IMG/VR virus record: IMGVR_UViG_3300021962_000124
Coordinates: 1-58,311 of that record
DNA length: 58,311 nt
DNA from: a virus
Strand: one strand, 5' to 3'
Shown in pieces: positions 6,676-57,461 of the stretch. The notes beneath the pieces were generated by a model. It was not told where the DNA came from. It saw only the letters and a list, made by a program, of their open reading frames with translations, and searched no databases. Within the stretch, counting starts at the first letter, position 1. Each line of letters opens with the position of its first letter. The translations under genes were made by a program, and so were the position numbers.

Positions 6676-9306
6676 TCAAACTGTTCCAACAACTTCTTCA
6701 AATGCAACACCAGTTCTAGTGGCAACAAATGTAAGGGTTACATAGTTAATGGACTTGGCAGGCTTCAGGAAGATGTCTGCTCTAAATTCATTATTATCAA
6801 TAACATCTGGAGTATTATTAGAAGAATCACAAACTACCAAGAATCCATAGAGACCACGCTTTGCCTGAACATCACGGAGATATGGTTCAACAATGTTTCT
6901 AAAGTTTGCTCTCGTAATCTCATCGTTTAACTCAAATAGTTGAGCTTGAGCACTTCTTTCTAATGCCTGTTCAATTGTGAGGAATAGGCGACGAACATTG
7001 ATTCTGTCAAATGCAGATGCATATCCTAGAGCGGTTTTATCTCCAAATAGGAGAATTCCAATTCCAGGTTGTGCTACAATTGCATTAATTCTTTGAGGAT
7101 AAAGTTGATCCCTTTGTGCTTTATTGGGGCTATATGCAAGTCTAATGGCATTGTTCAAAATTCCTCTCTGCTGACCAGCAGGAGAGAACCAAGGATATGC
7201 CTGAATACTTGTTCTAACCATCAATCCAGCAACGTCAGGGTTGGTTGGAATGTAGCGGAACTTATTATTAAATCTGTCATATGTATATTTGTATCCAGTA
7301 TCGAATACTGCATATGAAGATGATGGGAGGAATGAATAGAATTCAATAATGTTGTCAGTAATTTGATCTGGTGTCAGATACTGTCTTAATCCAGTTGAGT
7401 ACTCTGGTTCTGAGACAACATCTCCTCTGTGTGGAGAAATGACTGCCATACAATCCTTTCTCTGTTCAGCAATAGAGATCAAGTGTGCTGCCTTAGCTTG
7501 CGATTCAAATTTGTTTGCTAAACCTGGACCCATAATTAAATAATCTACCGCAATTTCGTCTCTATTTGCAAAGAGATCATATGAGGTAAATAGATCACCT
7601 AAAGTTGCGGTCATCGTACCAGTTTCTCCCGGCGACAGATCTGGATCGCCGTAATCCTTACCACCGGTTAGGACATATTGGGCATTACCAATAGCACTGA
7701 ACACTTTGTCCTGTGCAGGTTCGTTCCAGAGACCTTCTGCAACCGTATATGGTGAGAATGATTCGGAGAATCCTACTTGATAAACCTCCTCATTATTTTC
7801 ATTATCTGAAGGATTATCTCCTGCATACAGATAATTTGAATATTGTGCAAGGTATTCCTTGTACCAAATCTTCGTACCTGGATTTACTGCAGAAACGGCA
7901 TCAGTAGCTTTGGATAGATTTAGGTGTTTCTCTAGAAGATTTCCTTGGATTCCAGTAACATCTCCAGTATCATCAATTACGACTACGTGGAGAGTATCTC
8001 CTTTTCCATTTCTATCCAGAACATATCTATTCGTTACTGGTTTTGGTGCAATTGATCTCCAGTAAATATCAGCATTTACTAGATCAAGTTTTTGCTCATC
8101 ATACCAATCTTTAACAAAAGAACTACCTGCAGGTAACGTATAAGTTGTAACTAAACCAGTTGCAGTTCCTACTCCAGCAGTACTATCAATAAATCTTATT
8201 GTAGTTATTCCGCCACTAGCTGATGTTGGTCTTATTGAAAATGCTCTATTCTTTGCCTTATAATCAATAGGAGTATCTACATCCGTACCAATTGCAACTC
8301 TAGAGACAATCTTTACATCAATTTCAGTATCCCTAACTCCAGTTACAATACCCTTTAGATAACCAGTGAAAGTTGTGTTTATACCATTTGATTGAGTATA
8401 AGTTACATTATTCAATGCAACCGTGACTCCCAGACCAACTCCATTATCAGATCTAGCAATCAGAGTGTTATATACGGCAGTTCCAATTCCGATGATTTGA
8501 TCTGCTTTATCATCAATGATACAGACTTTGAGATTGTTTGACCAAGAACCTGGGTTCTTTGCTGAGAACATATATCCAGCAATATCATCCGCATAATTTA
8601 ACTGATAATCGTCGAAGTTTTTGATTTTTAATTCGGACTCACCTACTATTGAAGCTCCGTTGGTGGTATAGATGTCACTGATAGCAAAAGTAAATCCAAC
8701 TCCAATAGCGACTGCATTTCCTGTTGTTCCAACACCAACCGCAGTTGTGCCGATACCAATTACATCTCCTTCATTAAATCCATTACCACCATTTACGATA
8801 GAAACTGATACAGTAGAACCGGTTCCTGCTCCACCATCTGCAACAACGACAGTAAATATTGCTCCATATGATGCGGAGTCGCCACCATTAACTGCATAGG
8901 TTGCAATTCCACTTGTTCTAAATGTGTAAGTTCCGGGTTTTCTTAAAGTAGAAACACCAATAAACCCGGAATCTACATTCGTGTCAATAGCTTCTCCACT
9001 TCTGATTCTTCTTGCATTAGCATTTACAAGAGATTCTCCATCTGTTCTCACTACCTTCATTACTCCACCATAAGAAAGATATGATGAAGCACTCATCCAG
9101 TATTCATACTGTCCATCAAGAGACTGTGGTTTTCCGAATACGTTGAGAAGTTCTTTTTCTGTTGTGATATCTGTAGGGTCATCAACTGGACCTTGTGGGA
9201 ACGGAGCTGCAATAGCACCGATGTTATCCAATACATTATCAGCTCTTCCTACTGTTAAATCAACCTCTCTGATTAATACACCAGGAGATAATTGAGGAGT
9301 CGCCAT
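6676..9306 (-). CDS. gp18: Contractile tail sheath protein gp18, enlarged
   Basis: The N-terminus (MATPQLSPGVLIREVDLTVG) and the C-terminal part (AYPWFSPAGQQRGILNNAIR, NEFRADIFLKPAKSINYVTL) are the conserved ends of myovirus sheath proteins. The product contracts around the gp19 tube during injection. At 876 residues it is clearly longer than T4 gp18 (659). At about residues 145-205 it carries a Gly/Val/Thr-rich segment (VSVSIVNGGNGFNEGDVIGI) like the GY-rich repeat of other virion proteins here, which suggests an extra surface domain. A GGAG ribosome site and an AATAAATA late box precede the start. Confidence 0.95.
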   Translation of the reverse strand: MATPQLSPGVLIREVDLTVGRADNVLDNIGAIAAPFPQGPVDDPTDITTEKELLNVFGKPQSLDGQYEYWMSASSYLSYGGVMKVVRTDGESLVNANARRIRSGEAIDTNVDSGFIGVSTLRKPGTYTFRTSGIATYAVNGGDSASYGAIFTVVVADGGAGTGSTVSVSIVNGGNGFNEGDVIGIGTTAVGVGTTGNAVAIGVGFTFAISDIYTTNGASIVGESELKIKNFDDYQLNYADDIAGYMFSAKNPGSWSNNLKVCIIDDKADQIIGIGTAVYNTLIARSDNGVGLGVTVALNNVTYTQSNGINTTFTGYLKGIVTGVRDTEIDVKIVSRVAIGTDVDTPIDYKAKNRAFSIRPTSASGGITTIRFIDSTAGVGTATGLVTTYTLPAGSSFVKDWYDEQKLDLVNADIYWRSIAPKPVTNRYVLDRNGKGDTLHVVVIDDTGDVTGIQGNLLEKHLNLSKATDAVSAVNPGTKIWYKEYLAQYSNYLYAGDNPSDNENNEEVYQVGFSESFSPYTVAEGLWNEPAQDKVFSAIGNAQYVLTGGKDYGDPDLSPGETGTMTATLGDLFTSYDLFANRDEIAVDYLIMGPGLANKFESQAKAAHLISIAEQRKDCMAVISPHRGDVVSEPEYSTGLRQYLTPDQITDNIIEFYSFLPSSSYAVFDTGYKYTYDRFNNKFRYIPTNPDVAGLMVRTSIQAYPWFSPAGQQRGILNNAIRLAYSPNKAQRDQLYPQRINAIVAQPGIGILLFGDKTALGYASAFDRINVRRLFLTIEQALERSAQAQLFELNDEITRANFRNIVEPYLRDVQAKRGLYGFLVVCDSSNNTPDVIDNNEFRADIFLKPAKSINYVTLTFVATRTGVAFEEVVGTV

Positions 9307-9340
9307 GTTTTTCTCCGTAAATCTCAGTTTAACTAAAAAA

Positions 9341-9348
9341 TATTTATT
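9341..9348 (-). promoter_or_regulatory. Late promoter box (AATAAATA) for gp18
   Basis: A minus-strand AATAAATA 35 bases upstream of the sheath start, in the 80-bp gap after the zinc-motif gene. Sheath and tube are the most abundant tail proteins, so a dedicated late promoter is expected. Confidence 0.65.
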
Positions 9349-9387
9349 AAAACCTCATTTTTCGCAAGGGAAACACGACGTGAATAT

Positions 9388-9618
9388 CTACCAATCGGGA
9401 TATTCTGTGTAAGAAATCGATATGGTTTTTTTCTTTGATCCCAAAACTCTTTTAATTGTACATTCTTTACACTCATAAGAAAAAGAAGAAGAAACTGGAC
9501 CTCTATCTTTACGTGTCCTATAAAATCCATCTATTAAATTTTTTTCCTCTCCACAAATTCTACACTTTCTATCATTTAATAATAGATGACCAAGTTCAAT
9601 TTGTTTATCTAGATCCAT
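9388..9618 (-). CDS. Small protein with two CxxC zinc-type pairs
   Basis: A 76-residue protein, MDLDKQIELGHLLLNDRKCR onward. Cys pairs CRIC and CKEC, about 31 residues apart, look like a zinc ribbon or the scaffold of a small HNH-type domain. A Lys-rich tail (RVLGSKKK) follows. I see no HNH catalytic histidines, so I do not call a nuclease. The start overlaps the gp17 stop as TAATG, so it is translationally coupled to the large terminase. T4 has nothing between genes 17 and 18. DNA binding or a packaging accessory role is a guess. Confidence 0.7.
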   Translation of the reverse strand: MDLDKQIELGHLLLNDRKCRICGEEKNLIDGFYRTRKDRGPVSSSFSYECKECTIKRVLGSKKKTISISYTEYPDW

Positions 9619-11264
9619 TACATATAATCCCACATATATGAACGATCACCATATTCATCAACAAACCAACGATCTCCATCATTATCAACAAAACTATCAT
9701 CTCCCAAACCATCGGATATAAAACCAAAAGGAGACATATCTTGTTCTATTTGATTTTTTTGCTCCTCATATAATCTTTTTCTTACATCCTGGTCTGTAAG
9801 TTCTTTAAAATAATCCTGAGCAACTAACCAGGCATAAATCACAAGGCACATTGCAAGGTCATCATTACATCCTTCTTCTGCTTCAAAGGAATTGTGCTTT
9901 TGGATAAATGTTGTCAATTCGGAAATGATTTCATAGTCATTTAAAAACAATTTATTTTCTTCAATCATTGTCTTTAAATTTAAGCACCCAACTTTTTTTA
10001 CAGTTTTTGACATCTTAACTCCAAGTTGAGTTTTCTTTCCAGAAAATCCCTGACCAACAATTTGACCGGCACGCCCCCTCATTGAACACATAAGAAGATT
10101 GTTGTATTCCAAATCGTACTGAAGAATGCTTGCAACTTGATCACCAACATCATTTACTTCACACAAAATGTAAGCATCATTATATGCCGTTGCTGCTTCG
10201 TGTATAATGCTTGGAAATAGCATAGGTTTGATTTCATTGTTTCTATACTTTGCAACAAGTTTATGGGGAAATTGTGTGATATCAATAATAGTAAATGCTG
10301 AGTAATCATTTCCAACCCCTCTAGCAACATCCACAGTGACCAGATAATCATGATTCTCCTCTGGATCGACATAGACATCTAATCCCGCGCTACGGGTCTT
10401 GGGGGCGTCATAGACGAGGGTTCTGAGCTTGGATGGTGCAATAAGAGTATCGACGGAACCTAAGAATTCGCATTCAAATTCTACTTTGAATTGCTGTTCT
10501 GAAGTATTTGCAATTGTTTGTTTTTTCCACTCCTCATCTCTTCCTGGAACTTCGGACCAATGAACATCAGTGAAAACATATTCATTCTTACCTTTTTCAG
10601 CATCATGCCACATTCGGTAGAAATGATTCATACCATGTGGAGTGGAAACGATTATAACTTTAGTTTGCTTACCTGAAGTAATTGTTGGATAAACAGAAGC
10701 AAAGAATGAATCTGCAATATGATTAGGAACGAACGCAAATTCGTCTAAGAACAGAATGTTGAATGACATACCTCGGACAGCAGATGCAGATGTAGATGCC
10801 GCTAGAATTTTGGATCCATTTTCCAGTTCTAAAGATCCTTTATTCCAAGATATAATTCCTTGTTGCATCCACTTTGGAAGATTTTCATAAGCAGTTTGGA
10901 GACGATCCAAAAGTTCTCTAGCTGTTGCTGCTTTGTTTGCAAGAATACCAATATTTACATTGTCATTGAATACCGCATAGTGTAAAAGAAAAGATACAAC
11001 AGTTGTGGATTTGCCAGTCTGACGTGGCATCTTGCAAATGTTAAATCTATGATTATGAAAATTATTAATTAATTTTTCTTGAAAATGATATGGTTTAAAT
11101 GTCTGCAGACCATGATCTAGAGTTACAATTTTTACGTAATTGTTTGCAAAATAAACCGGATCATCTTTGCACTTTACAAATTCGAGAATTTGTTCTTGTG
11201 TAAATTCAATAGGAGTATTTGCTTTTTTTAAAAGCGGATTACCAAGATAAACATCATTTGACAT
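9618..11264 (-). CDS. gp17: Terminase large subunit gp17 (packaging ATPase/nuclease)
   Basis: A 548-residue packaging motor. The N-terminal ATPase carries Walker A MPRQTGKSTT (about 79-88) and Walker B LFLDEFAF (about 171-178). The C-terminal RNase-H-like nuclease has VTVDVARG with Asp312 and a later acidic pair in CNDDLAMCLVIYAW. It docks on the portal and pumps DNA into the prohead, cutting concatemers. It follows gp16 after two small-to-medium genes, whereas in T4 genes 16 and 17 are adjacent. T4 gp17 is 610 residues, so this form is somewhat shorter, as is usual in cyanophages. Confidence 0.98.
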   Translation of the reverse strand: MSNDVYLGNPLLKKANTPIEFTQEQILEFVKCKDDPVYFANNYVKIVTLDHGLQTFKPYHFQEKLINNFHNHRFNICKMPRQTGKSTTVVSFLLHYAVFNDNVNIGILANKAATARELLDRLQTAYENLPKWMQQGIISWNKGSLELENGSKILAASTSASAVRGMSFNILFLDEFAFVPNHIADSFFASVYPTITSGKQTKVIIVSTPHGMNHFYRMWHDAEKGKNEYVFTDVHWSEVPGRDEEWKKQTIANTSEQQFKVEFECEFLGSVDTLIAPSKLRTLVYDAPKTRSAGLDVYVDPEENHDYLVTVDVARGVGNDYSAFTIIDITQFPHKLVAKYRNNEIKPMLFPSIIHEAATAYNDAYILCEVNDVGDQVASILQYDLEYNNLLMCSMRGRAGQIVGQGFSGKKTQLGVKMSKTVKKVGCLNLKTMIEENKLFLNDYEIISELTTFIQKHNSFEAEEGCNDDLAMCLVIYAWLVAQDYFKELTDQDVRKRLYEEQKNQIEQDMSPFGFISDGLGDDSFVDNDGDRWFVDEYGDRSYMWDYM

Positions 11265-54495: not shown

Positions 54496-55269
54496 TCAAC
54501 CAAATTGCGTCAGATCAACTGGAATGTTTCCAATTCGATCCTCTGCGATCTTAAAGTATTCGGAATCACTTTCCATACCAATGAACTTACGTCCTAGTTT
54601 TACAGCAGCAACACCTGTAGATCCAGATCCCATACAATTATCCAACACAACTTCACCCTCGTTAGAGTAAGTTTTTACCAACCATTCCATTAGTGGAACT
54701 GGTTTTTGTGTAGGATGAACTTGTTGCTGAGCACTGAAATCTCTTGAAATGTTGAGAACTGACTTCGGATACCTTGTACCATCATTAGAGAATGATTTGC
54801 GTGGTTTCATACCATAACCATGATCATTCTTTCGACCAACGTAACCCTCTGGGTTCTTACTTGTTCTTGAGTATGGTTCTCCTTTTTCCATCTGTGGGTT
54901 GTATGTACCACCTGCGTTCTTGTAGAAGATCAGAATGTTCTCGTGAGTCTTCATTGGTCTGTATTTGGCAAGTCCAGGCGACCCACATTTGTTCTTGTTC
55001 CACACTAACTCGTACCTGAACCATTCTAACTTTGAGCAAATAAGTTGTGCGGAAAAAGGCTGAGAACCAAACAGGCAAATCACACCCTTAGGTTTAATGA
55101 TTCTGCCATACTGTTCCCACATAAGGTTAAAATCTAAAACCTCATCCCATTTGATCGAAGTAGTACCAAAAGGTGGATCACAGCAAATAAAATCAATAGA
55201 AGAATCGGGGATGTCTTTCATCAACTGAAGGCAATCCCCGAATTGTAGATCAAAGTTGCTCAAAACCAT
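54496..55269 (-). CDS. DNA methyltransferase, beta class (N6-adenine or N4-cytosine)
   Basis: A 257-residue enzyme. The catalytic motif IV is ICCDPPFGTT (DPPF at 31-34) and the SAM-binding motif I comes after it, LDNCMGSGSTGVAA (about 209-222). This IV-before-I order defines the beta class, as in DpnM-unrelated enzymes such as YhdJ/MboII type. HPTQKPVPLMEWL before motif I is also typical. The product would methylate DNA, protecting it from restriction. Its start lies 20 bases inside the 201-residue gene, so the two are co-translated and may be a functional pair. Confidence 0.93.
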   Translation of the reverse strand: MVLSNFDLQFGDCLQLMKDIPDSSIDFICCDPPFGTTSIKWDEVLDFNLMWEQYGRIIKPKGVICLFGSQPFSAQLICSKLEWFRYELVWNKNKCGSPGLAKYRPMKTHENILIFYKNAGGTYNPQMEKGEPYSRTSKNPEGYVGRKNDHGYGMKPRKSFSNDGTRYPKSVLNISRDFSAQQQVHPTQKPVPLMEWLVKTYSNEGEVVLDNCMGSGSTGVAAVKLGRKFIGMESDSEYFKIAEDRIGNIPVDLTQFG

Positions 55270-55855
55270 TGTGTGCGTTAATTTTGCGGCGTACAGATTC
55301 CTTGTAACATTCTACCAGAAACTTGTATGCTTGTCCATAGTCACGCTCAACGGGTTGAGTGTTATCCTTCCACTTAATTTGGAAGGGAAGATTATTACCA
55401 TTTGGAGTAATCTTCTGAAGAGACTTGAGACTTTGCAGATAAACTTTCTGAGTTCCCTTATCTACAACAATGATATAATAATCACGGTTGTTCTCTGCTC
55501 CACTGTGATTCTTCAGTGCATCCTGGAACTTTGCCCAGGAACTTGCATTAACTTGATCTTCAGGAAGATCAGTCAGAGCATACAAAATTGCTGCTTTTGA
55601 CGAAAAGTTATCTGCTGCACCTTTGTTGAAATCAGATGACTTAATGTTGAGATAATACCCAAACAATTTGACATCCCACCAGCAACGTGCTGGTGGTTTC
55701 TCTACATTTTCAGGACCATACTTCTCAACAAGAAGATCAATTACAGTGTCTTCATCTGCAATACTATTCACTCGCCCATCTTCATGACTCTCACTAATTG
55801 TAACAATGCCAGAGAGATAACTCACTACATCGGTAAGTTGTTGCGGAAAGTTCAT
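55250..55855 (-). CDS. Possible type II restriction-endonuclease-like protein
   Basis: A 201-residue protein overlapping the methyltransferase by 20 bases. It has ESHEDGRVNSIADED (about 22-36), then CWWDVKLFGYYLNIKSSDF. Asp61 with Asn70-Ile-Lys72 resembles a PD-(D/E)xK core in which the second acid is replaced; Glu25 or Glu35 could complete it. ADNFSSKAAILYALT follows. The layout and the partner suggest a restriction-type nuclease or an inactive relative. I know no named family with certainty. Alternatives are a methyltransferase accessory or a DNA-binding protein. Confidence 0.55.
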   Translation of the reverse strand: MNFPQQLTDVVSYLSGIVTISESHEDGRVNSIADEDTVIDLLVEKYGPENVEKPPARCWWDVKLFGYYLNIKSSDFNKGAADNFSSKAAILYALTDLPEDQVNASSWAKFQDALKNHSGAENNRDYYIIVVDKGTQKVYLQSLKSLQKITPNGNNLPFQIKWKDNTQPVERDYGQAYKFLVECYKESVRRKINAHNGFEQL

Positions 55856-55870: not shown

Positions 55871-55900
55871 AATGAAGAGACAGTTTCAAGGCCCCAGGTT
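55871..55900 (-). repeat. 30-bp intergenic element, copy 12
   Basis: Core AACCTGGGGCCTTGAAA kept, end CTGTCTCTTCATT changed. It lies four bases after the stop of the 59-residue gene and about 15 bases before the restriction-like ATG. Confidence 0.88.
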
Positions 55901-57378: not shown

Positions 57379-57461
57379 TGGATGACCTGTAGGGTCTGTG
57401 ACGCAGAATTGAAGAAAAATCAGGTTTTGACCCCAGTCCACCACTGGGATCTCAGTGGGTC
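57379..57461 (-). ncRNA. Structured 3' element, copy A
   Basis: Directly follows the helicase stop. On the minus strand ACTG/CAGT forms a hairpin, enclosed by GACCC with GGGTC, and ACCTG pairs with CAGGT across about 35 bases. Copy B (50778-50871) has different bases in the outer helix (GTCT with AGAC) but keeps pairing, and the lengths between shared blocks are equal. It has a short T run (ATTTTTC) but not a typical terminator layout. Function unknown. Confidence 0.55.

Follow-up and report, generated by a model that had tools for sequence, protein, structure and literature searches.

The window analysed here, meaning the whole 58.3-kb virus record, is of the T4-like cyanomyovirus type, since the closest relatives of both genes under study are all marine cyanophages. 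On its minus strand a 201-aa nuclease open reading frame comes first and a 257-aa methyltransferase open reading frame second, such that an endonuclease and a methyltransferase lie as separate neighbouring genes, as in type II restriction-modification systems. The features of the locus are as follows:

55250..55855, minus strand: restriction endonuclease, 201 aa (open reading frame; phrog_3978 "endonuclease", PHROG E 3.7e-88; no Pfam family; AlphaFold and Foldseek; relatives)
54496..55269, minus strand: beta-class N6-adenine DNA methyltransferase, 257 aa (open reading frame; PF01555)
55250..55269, minus strand: stretch of 20 nt shared by the two genes (overlap 14-23 nt in nearly all relatives with both genes)
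55640..55675, minus strand: active-site core D61...N70-I71-K72, a variant PD-(D/E)xK with Asn (sequence and 59 homologues)
55751..55753, minus strand: codon of Glu35, a helix glutamate at least 90% conserved in homologues and a candidate extra metal ligand
55168..55179, minus strand: methyltransferase motif IV, DPPF (DPPY or DLPY in most relatives)
55886..55898, minus strand: intergenic copy of the repeat CCTGGGGCCTTGA, a candidate regulatory element
57436..57441, no strand: nearest remaining GTNNAC site (motif count in the window)
926, 1564, 2932, 25747, 39087 and 39404: the only other GTNNAC sites in the window (motif count)

The pair and its surroundings

Both overlapping frames had been called from the letters alone, at these coordinates, in an original prediction that also took the methyltransferase to be clearly beta-class, and this reading held throughout: the protein matches PF01555 (N6/N4, E 1.6e-33), and its DPPF (residues 31-34) precedes a C-terminal glycine-rich SAM motif, which gives the beta order of an N6-adenine enzyme. 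Methyltransferases related to it occur in 1358 phage records; motif IV reads DLPY rather than DPPY or DPPF in four relatives (L021, L023, L033, and L165).

A matched nuclease in a phage had been expected to be unusual, which was not borne out, as the pair is already annotated: tblastn with the nuclease found matches in 40 cyanophage records (P-HM2, Syn33, ACG-2014a, S-RIM12, and S-MbCM100), where the labels at the pair are "restriction endonuclease" and "DNA adenine methylase". The annotated pair in these phages (T4-GC 588 and T4-GC 38) has the same genes, order, and overlap as the window, with nucleases that share 57-65% identity with the window's. The existence of the pair is thus known from annotation; our literature search found no paper giving its recognition site, partner history, or function, and Sullivan et al. 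2010 mention a pair of endonucleases, not named, that is unique to P-HM2 relative to P-HM1 (PMC3037559).

Upstream of the pair lie, as first described, an SF2 helicase (truncated by the window end) and a 381-aa protein. The suggestion that they extend the pair into a larger conserved defence locus or island was rejected, as of the 33 loci with 3 kb on both sides, 7 place the helicase that close to the pair and none has the 381-aa protein there. Separately, the window holds eleven copies of CCTGGGGCCTTGA (0-1 mismatch) between 46985 and 55898, all on the minus strand, against 0.02 expected; the copies checked lie between genes, one of them 31 nt upstream of the nuclease ATG, and the repeat probably serves this phage group in regulation or recombination.

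A restriction-enzyme fold and a swapped partner

The nuclease matched no Pfam or NCBIfam model, its best PADLOC match reached only E 0.011, and the one phmmer match in the PDB, to ThaI, was below threshold (E 0.18), although D...SIK aligned there to D...NIK. Since profile searches returned nothing either, a fold comparison was needed. An AlphaFold model built with 59 homologues (pLDDT 94, pTM 0.89) was compared with the PDB by Foldseek, which returned SwaI as the best match (E 3.5e-5, TM 0.62/0.56), together with HincII (E 3e-4 to 1e-3, TM up to 0.60), ThaI (E 4.5e-4), and, more weakly, EcoRV (E 0.03). All four are type II restriction enzymes that leave blunt ends. These enzymes are the best fold matches, yet their sequence identity to the nuclease is only 12-18%.

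The WWD...NIK core picked out in the original prediction is real. Among the 59 homologues, which come from phages and bacteria, D61 and K72 are invariant, N70 is at least 90% conserved, a few rows having Gln, and an NGNNLPFQ..W..N block is also at least 90% conserved (residue numbers are those of the full protein; alignment numbering is one lower). The predicted structure and the alignment place the D...xK core of HincII/EcoRV-like PD-(D/E)xK endonucleases in a restriction-enzyme fold, while the usual second acid of (D/E)xK is replaced by Asn or Gln family-wide, a difference from the matched restriction enzymes. The conserved Glu35 may substitute for the missing acid, and the nuclease is predicted to work like a HincII/EcoRV-type enzyme with a variant active site. 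Because the Asn of NxK is common to the whole family, including bacterial restriction-modification members, it is no sign of inactivation or decay.

A scan of 84,980 prokaryote species genomes yielded 60 loci with 30-40% identity to the nuclease, in hosts that include Helicobacter, Campylobacter, Bacteroidota, Neisseriaceae, Saccharibacteria, Mycoplasma, and an archaeal MAG. In all 60 bacterial and archaeal loci, a gamma-type (Eco57I/TaqI-like, PF07669) adenine methyltransferase adjoins the nuclease, either downstream or upstream, and a phage-type beta methyltransferase is the neighbour in none; some copies of either gene carry frameshifts. The PD-(D/E)xK-type nuclease matched to a methyltransferase that had been foreseen is thus borne out twice, by a predicted fold that is that of restriction enzymes rather than one unrelated to nucleases, and by homologues that are almost always paired with methyltransferases. 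Cyanophage loci, with few exceptions, have in this position a beta-class (PF01555) methyltransferase whose identity to the window's is 77-100%, from which it follows, given the uniform gamma partner in cells, that the cyanophage pair has swapped its partner.

The gamma methyltransferase is kept in a few other viral contigs (L162, L163, L164, L166, and L167), and beta and gamma forms stand apart in the nuclease tree with strong support, except for L162, which has the gamma partner and sits on a long branch inside the beta side. These sequences are most simply explained if phages acquired a cellular gamma-type module whose methyltransferase was then exchanged for one of another class; if such an exchange was workable, both methyltransferases should protect the same site.

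Three individual loci are worth noting. The L162 locus (8001-9829 of a 175-kb viral contig) combines a gamma methyltransferase with a nuclease of the beta-partner branch, for which a second partner change or a long-branch effect is possible. In L165 (7998-9159) a beta methyltransferase that shares 79% identity with the window's stands next to a nuclease that has diverged strongly (39% identity, core NWK), the methyltransferase being by far the more conserved of the two. Mycoplasma phage MW353172 (8007-8603) holds a weak nuclease relative (27% identity, E 9e-3) annotated as a hypothetical protein.

Avoidance of GTNNAC and probable loss of the methyltransferase

Candidate recognition sites were sought as palindromes avoided by genomes with the system, with expected counts assuming independent half-sites. 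Around the bacterial loci, no gapped palindrome was avoided more strongly by z than GTNNAC (531 seen, 1539 expected). Ranked among 80 motifs, it came first in Campylobacter, in Mycoplasma, in a mixed archaeal and other set, and in phages with the gamma methyltransferase, and third in Helicobacter, while Saccharibacteria with the bacterial system showed little avoidance (0.83). The window holds 7 sites against 159.4 ± 12.3 expected, or 5 against 102.8 ± 9.2 under synonymous-codon shuffling.

The ratio of observed to expected GTNNAC had a median of 0.33 in 30 stretches from carriers of nuclease plus methyltransferase vs 0.85 in 49 non-carriers (Mann-Whitney p 1e-12), where the stretches are not all independent and a fragment was called non-carrier when the stretch analysed showed no nuclease match; seven reference cyanophages without a detected nuclease relative gave 0.65-0.91. 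Among 336 palindromes, GTNNAC best separated carriers from non-carriers (z -14.5; next -7.9). Carriers varied widely (0.03-0.85), with weak avoidance in, e.g., Syn33 slices (0.59-0.64) and two contig slices (L185 and L186, 0.75-0.85). Six other palindromes (GATC, GGCC, CATG, CCGG, AGCT, and TCGA) were considered as the site and rejected, being avoided in some sets but without tracking the nuclease. As a general feature, practically all cyanophages examined lack CCGG and have few GGCC and AGCT sites, pair or no pair; the window is an exception for CCGG, with 40 found of 63 expected.

The nuclease thus probably recognises GTNNAC, the specificity of Hpy166II and Hpy8I; for the window's pair, both this assignment and the Hpy166II-type comparison are drawn from site avoidance, and GTNNAC would be the methyltransferase's site on the evidence of the relaxed avoidance where that gene is present. 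Every sequence that fits the HincII site, GTYRAC, also fits GTNNAC. The family is well represented, in its gamma-methyltransferase form, among Helicobacter and Campylobacter, and in H. pylori HP0910 (M.HpyAIX) and its cognate nuclease HP0909 have been assigned to GTNNAC (PMC3936762). The cyanophage pair has a beta-class PF01555 enzyme instead of a gamma one, and its likeness to the Hpy166II/Hpy8I type lies in the putative site.

Several cyanophage contigs have an intact nuclease without METHYLTRANSFERASE, the methyltransferase being neither adjoining nor elsewhere on the contig. Seven contigs of this kind together contain 2 GTNNAC sites against 229 expected, and the mirror motif ACNNGT occurs 264 times against 229; they are 5.8-14.8 kb fragments, whose genomes may hold a methyltransferase elsewhere, and amount to about three lineages (G001-G003 with L134 as one population, the near-identical G004 and G005, and G006, which has only a partial nuclease and holds both sites). 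Such loss is what an active nuclease would lead one to expect, since without methylation the genome must lose the site, and it argues that selection is on the nuclease, not on methylation. In the tree, two nuclease-only lineages branch apart, each beside a methyltransferase-bearing sister that keeps sites (L151, 24 of 38.8; L031, 5 of 17.8), and we propose that the methyltransferase was lost in at least two lineages and the genome then purged. Nuclease dN/dS is 0.04-0.065 in the population G001-G003 with L134, the sole nuclease-only population testable; site purging and low dN/dS together suggest that the nuclease is very probably active and useful in itself to the phage.

P-HM1 and P-HM2 are filed under one species and host and differ at the cassette: the pair lies between hsp20 and the T4-GC 176 gene in P-HM2, while in P-HM1 hsp20 is followed directly by the T4-GC 176 gene. 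Over 20.7 kb aligned, 31 GTNNAC sites are private to P-HM1 vs 18 to P-HM2 (P 0.085), a difference in the expected direction that is suggestive, not significant, as expected for a recent gain. GTAC goes the opposite way, with 34 sites private to P-HM2 (L176) vs 9 to P-HM1 (L169; P 1.7e-4); a GTAC-cutting enzyme may be exerting pressure on P-HM1, and Syn19 encodes a phage protein that bears the name R.RsaI endonuclease. With host and genome backbone in common, the two phages form a natural test pair.

Proposed role and known viral systems

On our preferred reading, to which we give a probability of about 0.78, the phage carries the pair as a type II restriction-modification module for offensive use. 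Its nuclease would be a small HincII/SwaI-like PD-(D/E)xK enzyme that presumably dimerises, leaves blunt ends, and cuts GTNNAC where it is unmodified. In an infected cell its targets would be the unmethylated host chromosome and the DNA of co-infecting phages without protection, and the phage would protect itself in two ways, first because the overlapping beta methyltransferase would methylate the adenine in GTNNAC, and second because its genome has shed most of these sites. By origin the module would belong to a cellular restriction-modification family whose gamma (TaqI/Eco57I) partner was replaced in cyanophages by a phage beta methyltransferase, which at least two lineages would subsequently have lost before their sites were purged. 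The early suggestion that the nuclease cuts host or rival DNA is, on this evidence, probable. Host degradation and rival exclusion are compatible and need the same active enzyme, and we rank the former somewhat higher.

Several reports bear on host degradation. Cyanomyoviruses may degrade host DNA by an undescribed method (PMC2984593), and infection by the carrier P-HM2 in the light destroys 86% of host DNA, a process that begins at 1.5 h (PMC5082946). Syn9 and P-SSP7 degrade host DNA too (PMC7852597), and tblastn found no nuclease relative in either record; the nuclease is hence not required for host degradation, and the pair would be one route among several.

It is possible, though we think it rather less likely, that the main job of the same enzymes is to exclude rival phages in mixed infections, with other nucleases degrading host DNA and the pair adding little. 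Syn9 and P-SSP7 fit such a division of labour, rivals would be vulnerable in that the genomes of non-carriers have about 2.7 GTNNAC sites in every kb, and a Marseillevirus GATC enzyme leaves host DNA intact, its proposed function being the exclusion of other viruses (PMC7253447). However, a strong and common pressure of this kind should have led non-carriers to avoid GTNNAC, which at a median of 0.85 they do only slightly, and the chlorovirus enzymes, whose accepted role is host DNA degradation, are not responsible for exclusion (PMC7019647).

We regard it as unlikely that the scarcity of GTNNAC has a different origin, for example common descent or codon usage, and that the true site is something else. 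Cyanophages do avoid several palindromes generally (CCGG, GGCC, and AGCT), and the wide spread among carriers would suit such a cause, but GTNNAC is singled out in the 336-motif scan and is conspicuous also in unrelated bacteria that have the gamma form, while its mirror motif is unaffected and synonymous shuffling fails to explain its scarcity. Somewhat less likely again is a selfish addiction module that persists because loss kills: the two overlapping genes travel together as a cassette that P-HM2 has and P-HM1 lacks at the corresponding position, but P-HM1 lives without either gene, and lineages with the nuclease and without the antidote (the methyltransferase) survive through site purging. 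We find it improbable that the methyltransferase protects against host restriction at GTNNAC, with the nuclease as a passenger. Lone phage methyltransferases can protect against restriction, as in 936-type lactococcal phages (PMC4190342), and relatives of the window's enzyme are widespread in phage records; yet it is the methyltransferase, not the nuclease, that some lineages lost, and there the sites vanish and the nuclease is under purifying selection, while non-carriers on the same host do not strongly avoid GTNNAC (e.g., P-HM1 on MED4, 0.75). Finally, an inactivated nuclease kept as a DNA-binding target-recognition protein, an idea of the original prediction that the Asn or Gln in place of the usual second acid would suit, is very improbable and was rejected, as the same Asn occurs in homologues within bacterial restriction-modification pairs, dN/dS is low, and a mere binder gives no reason for near-complete loss of sites without a methyltransferase.

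If the offensive module acts as the evidence suggests, part of the breakdown of host DNA by cyanophages would be the work of a sequence-specific restriction enzyme at a known site. Its history would also bring into view two moves that are rarely visible, namely a restriction enzyme taking a methyltransferase of another class and phages keeping the enzyme with no methyltransferase beside it by deleting their own targets. In itself, site purging could serve to infer from genome sequence what an uncharacterised viral restriction enzyme recognises.

Among known viral systems, those of chloroviruses (CviAI, CviAII, etc.) likewise set a restriction enzyme beside an adjoining methyltransferase, as in the window. 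Chloroviruses differ in having a eukaryotic host and nucleases packaged in the virion, and are not known to include nuclease-only lineages with purged sites (PMC7019647). The GATC system of Marseilleviridae is a viral pair too, with methylation protecting the viral DNA (PMC7253447). The same biological job as that proposed for the pair is done in T4 by EndoII (denA) and by EndoIV (denB) with modified cytosine, but T4 protects itself by base substitution, and cyanomyoviruses are without denA, ndd, and denB (PMC2984593). We lean, with some reserve, towards the view that certain cyanophages carry a solitary active GTNNAC endonuclease and no methyltransferase at all, tell self from non-self by near-total removal of the target, and so possess a purely offensive, sequence-defined replacement for the host-DNA-degrading enzymes of T4.
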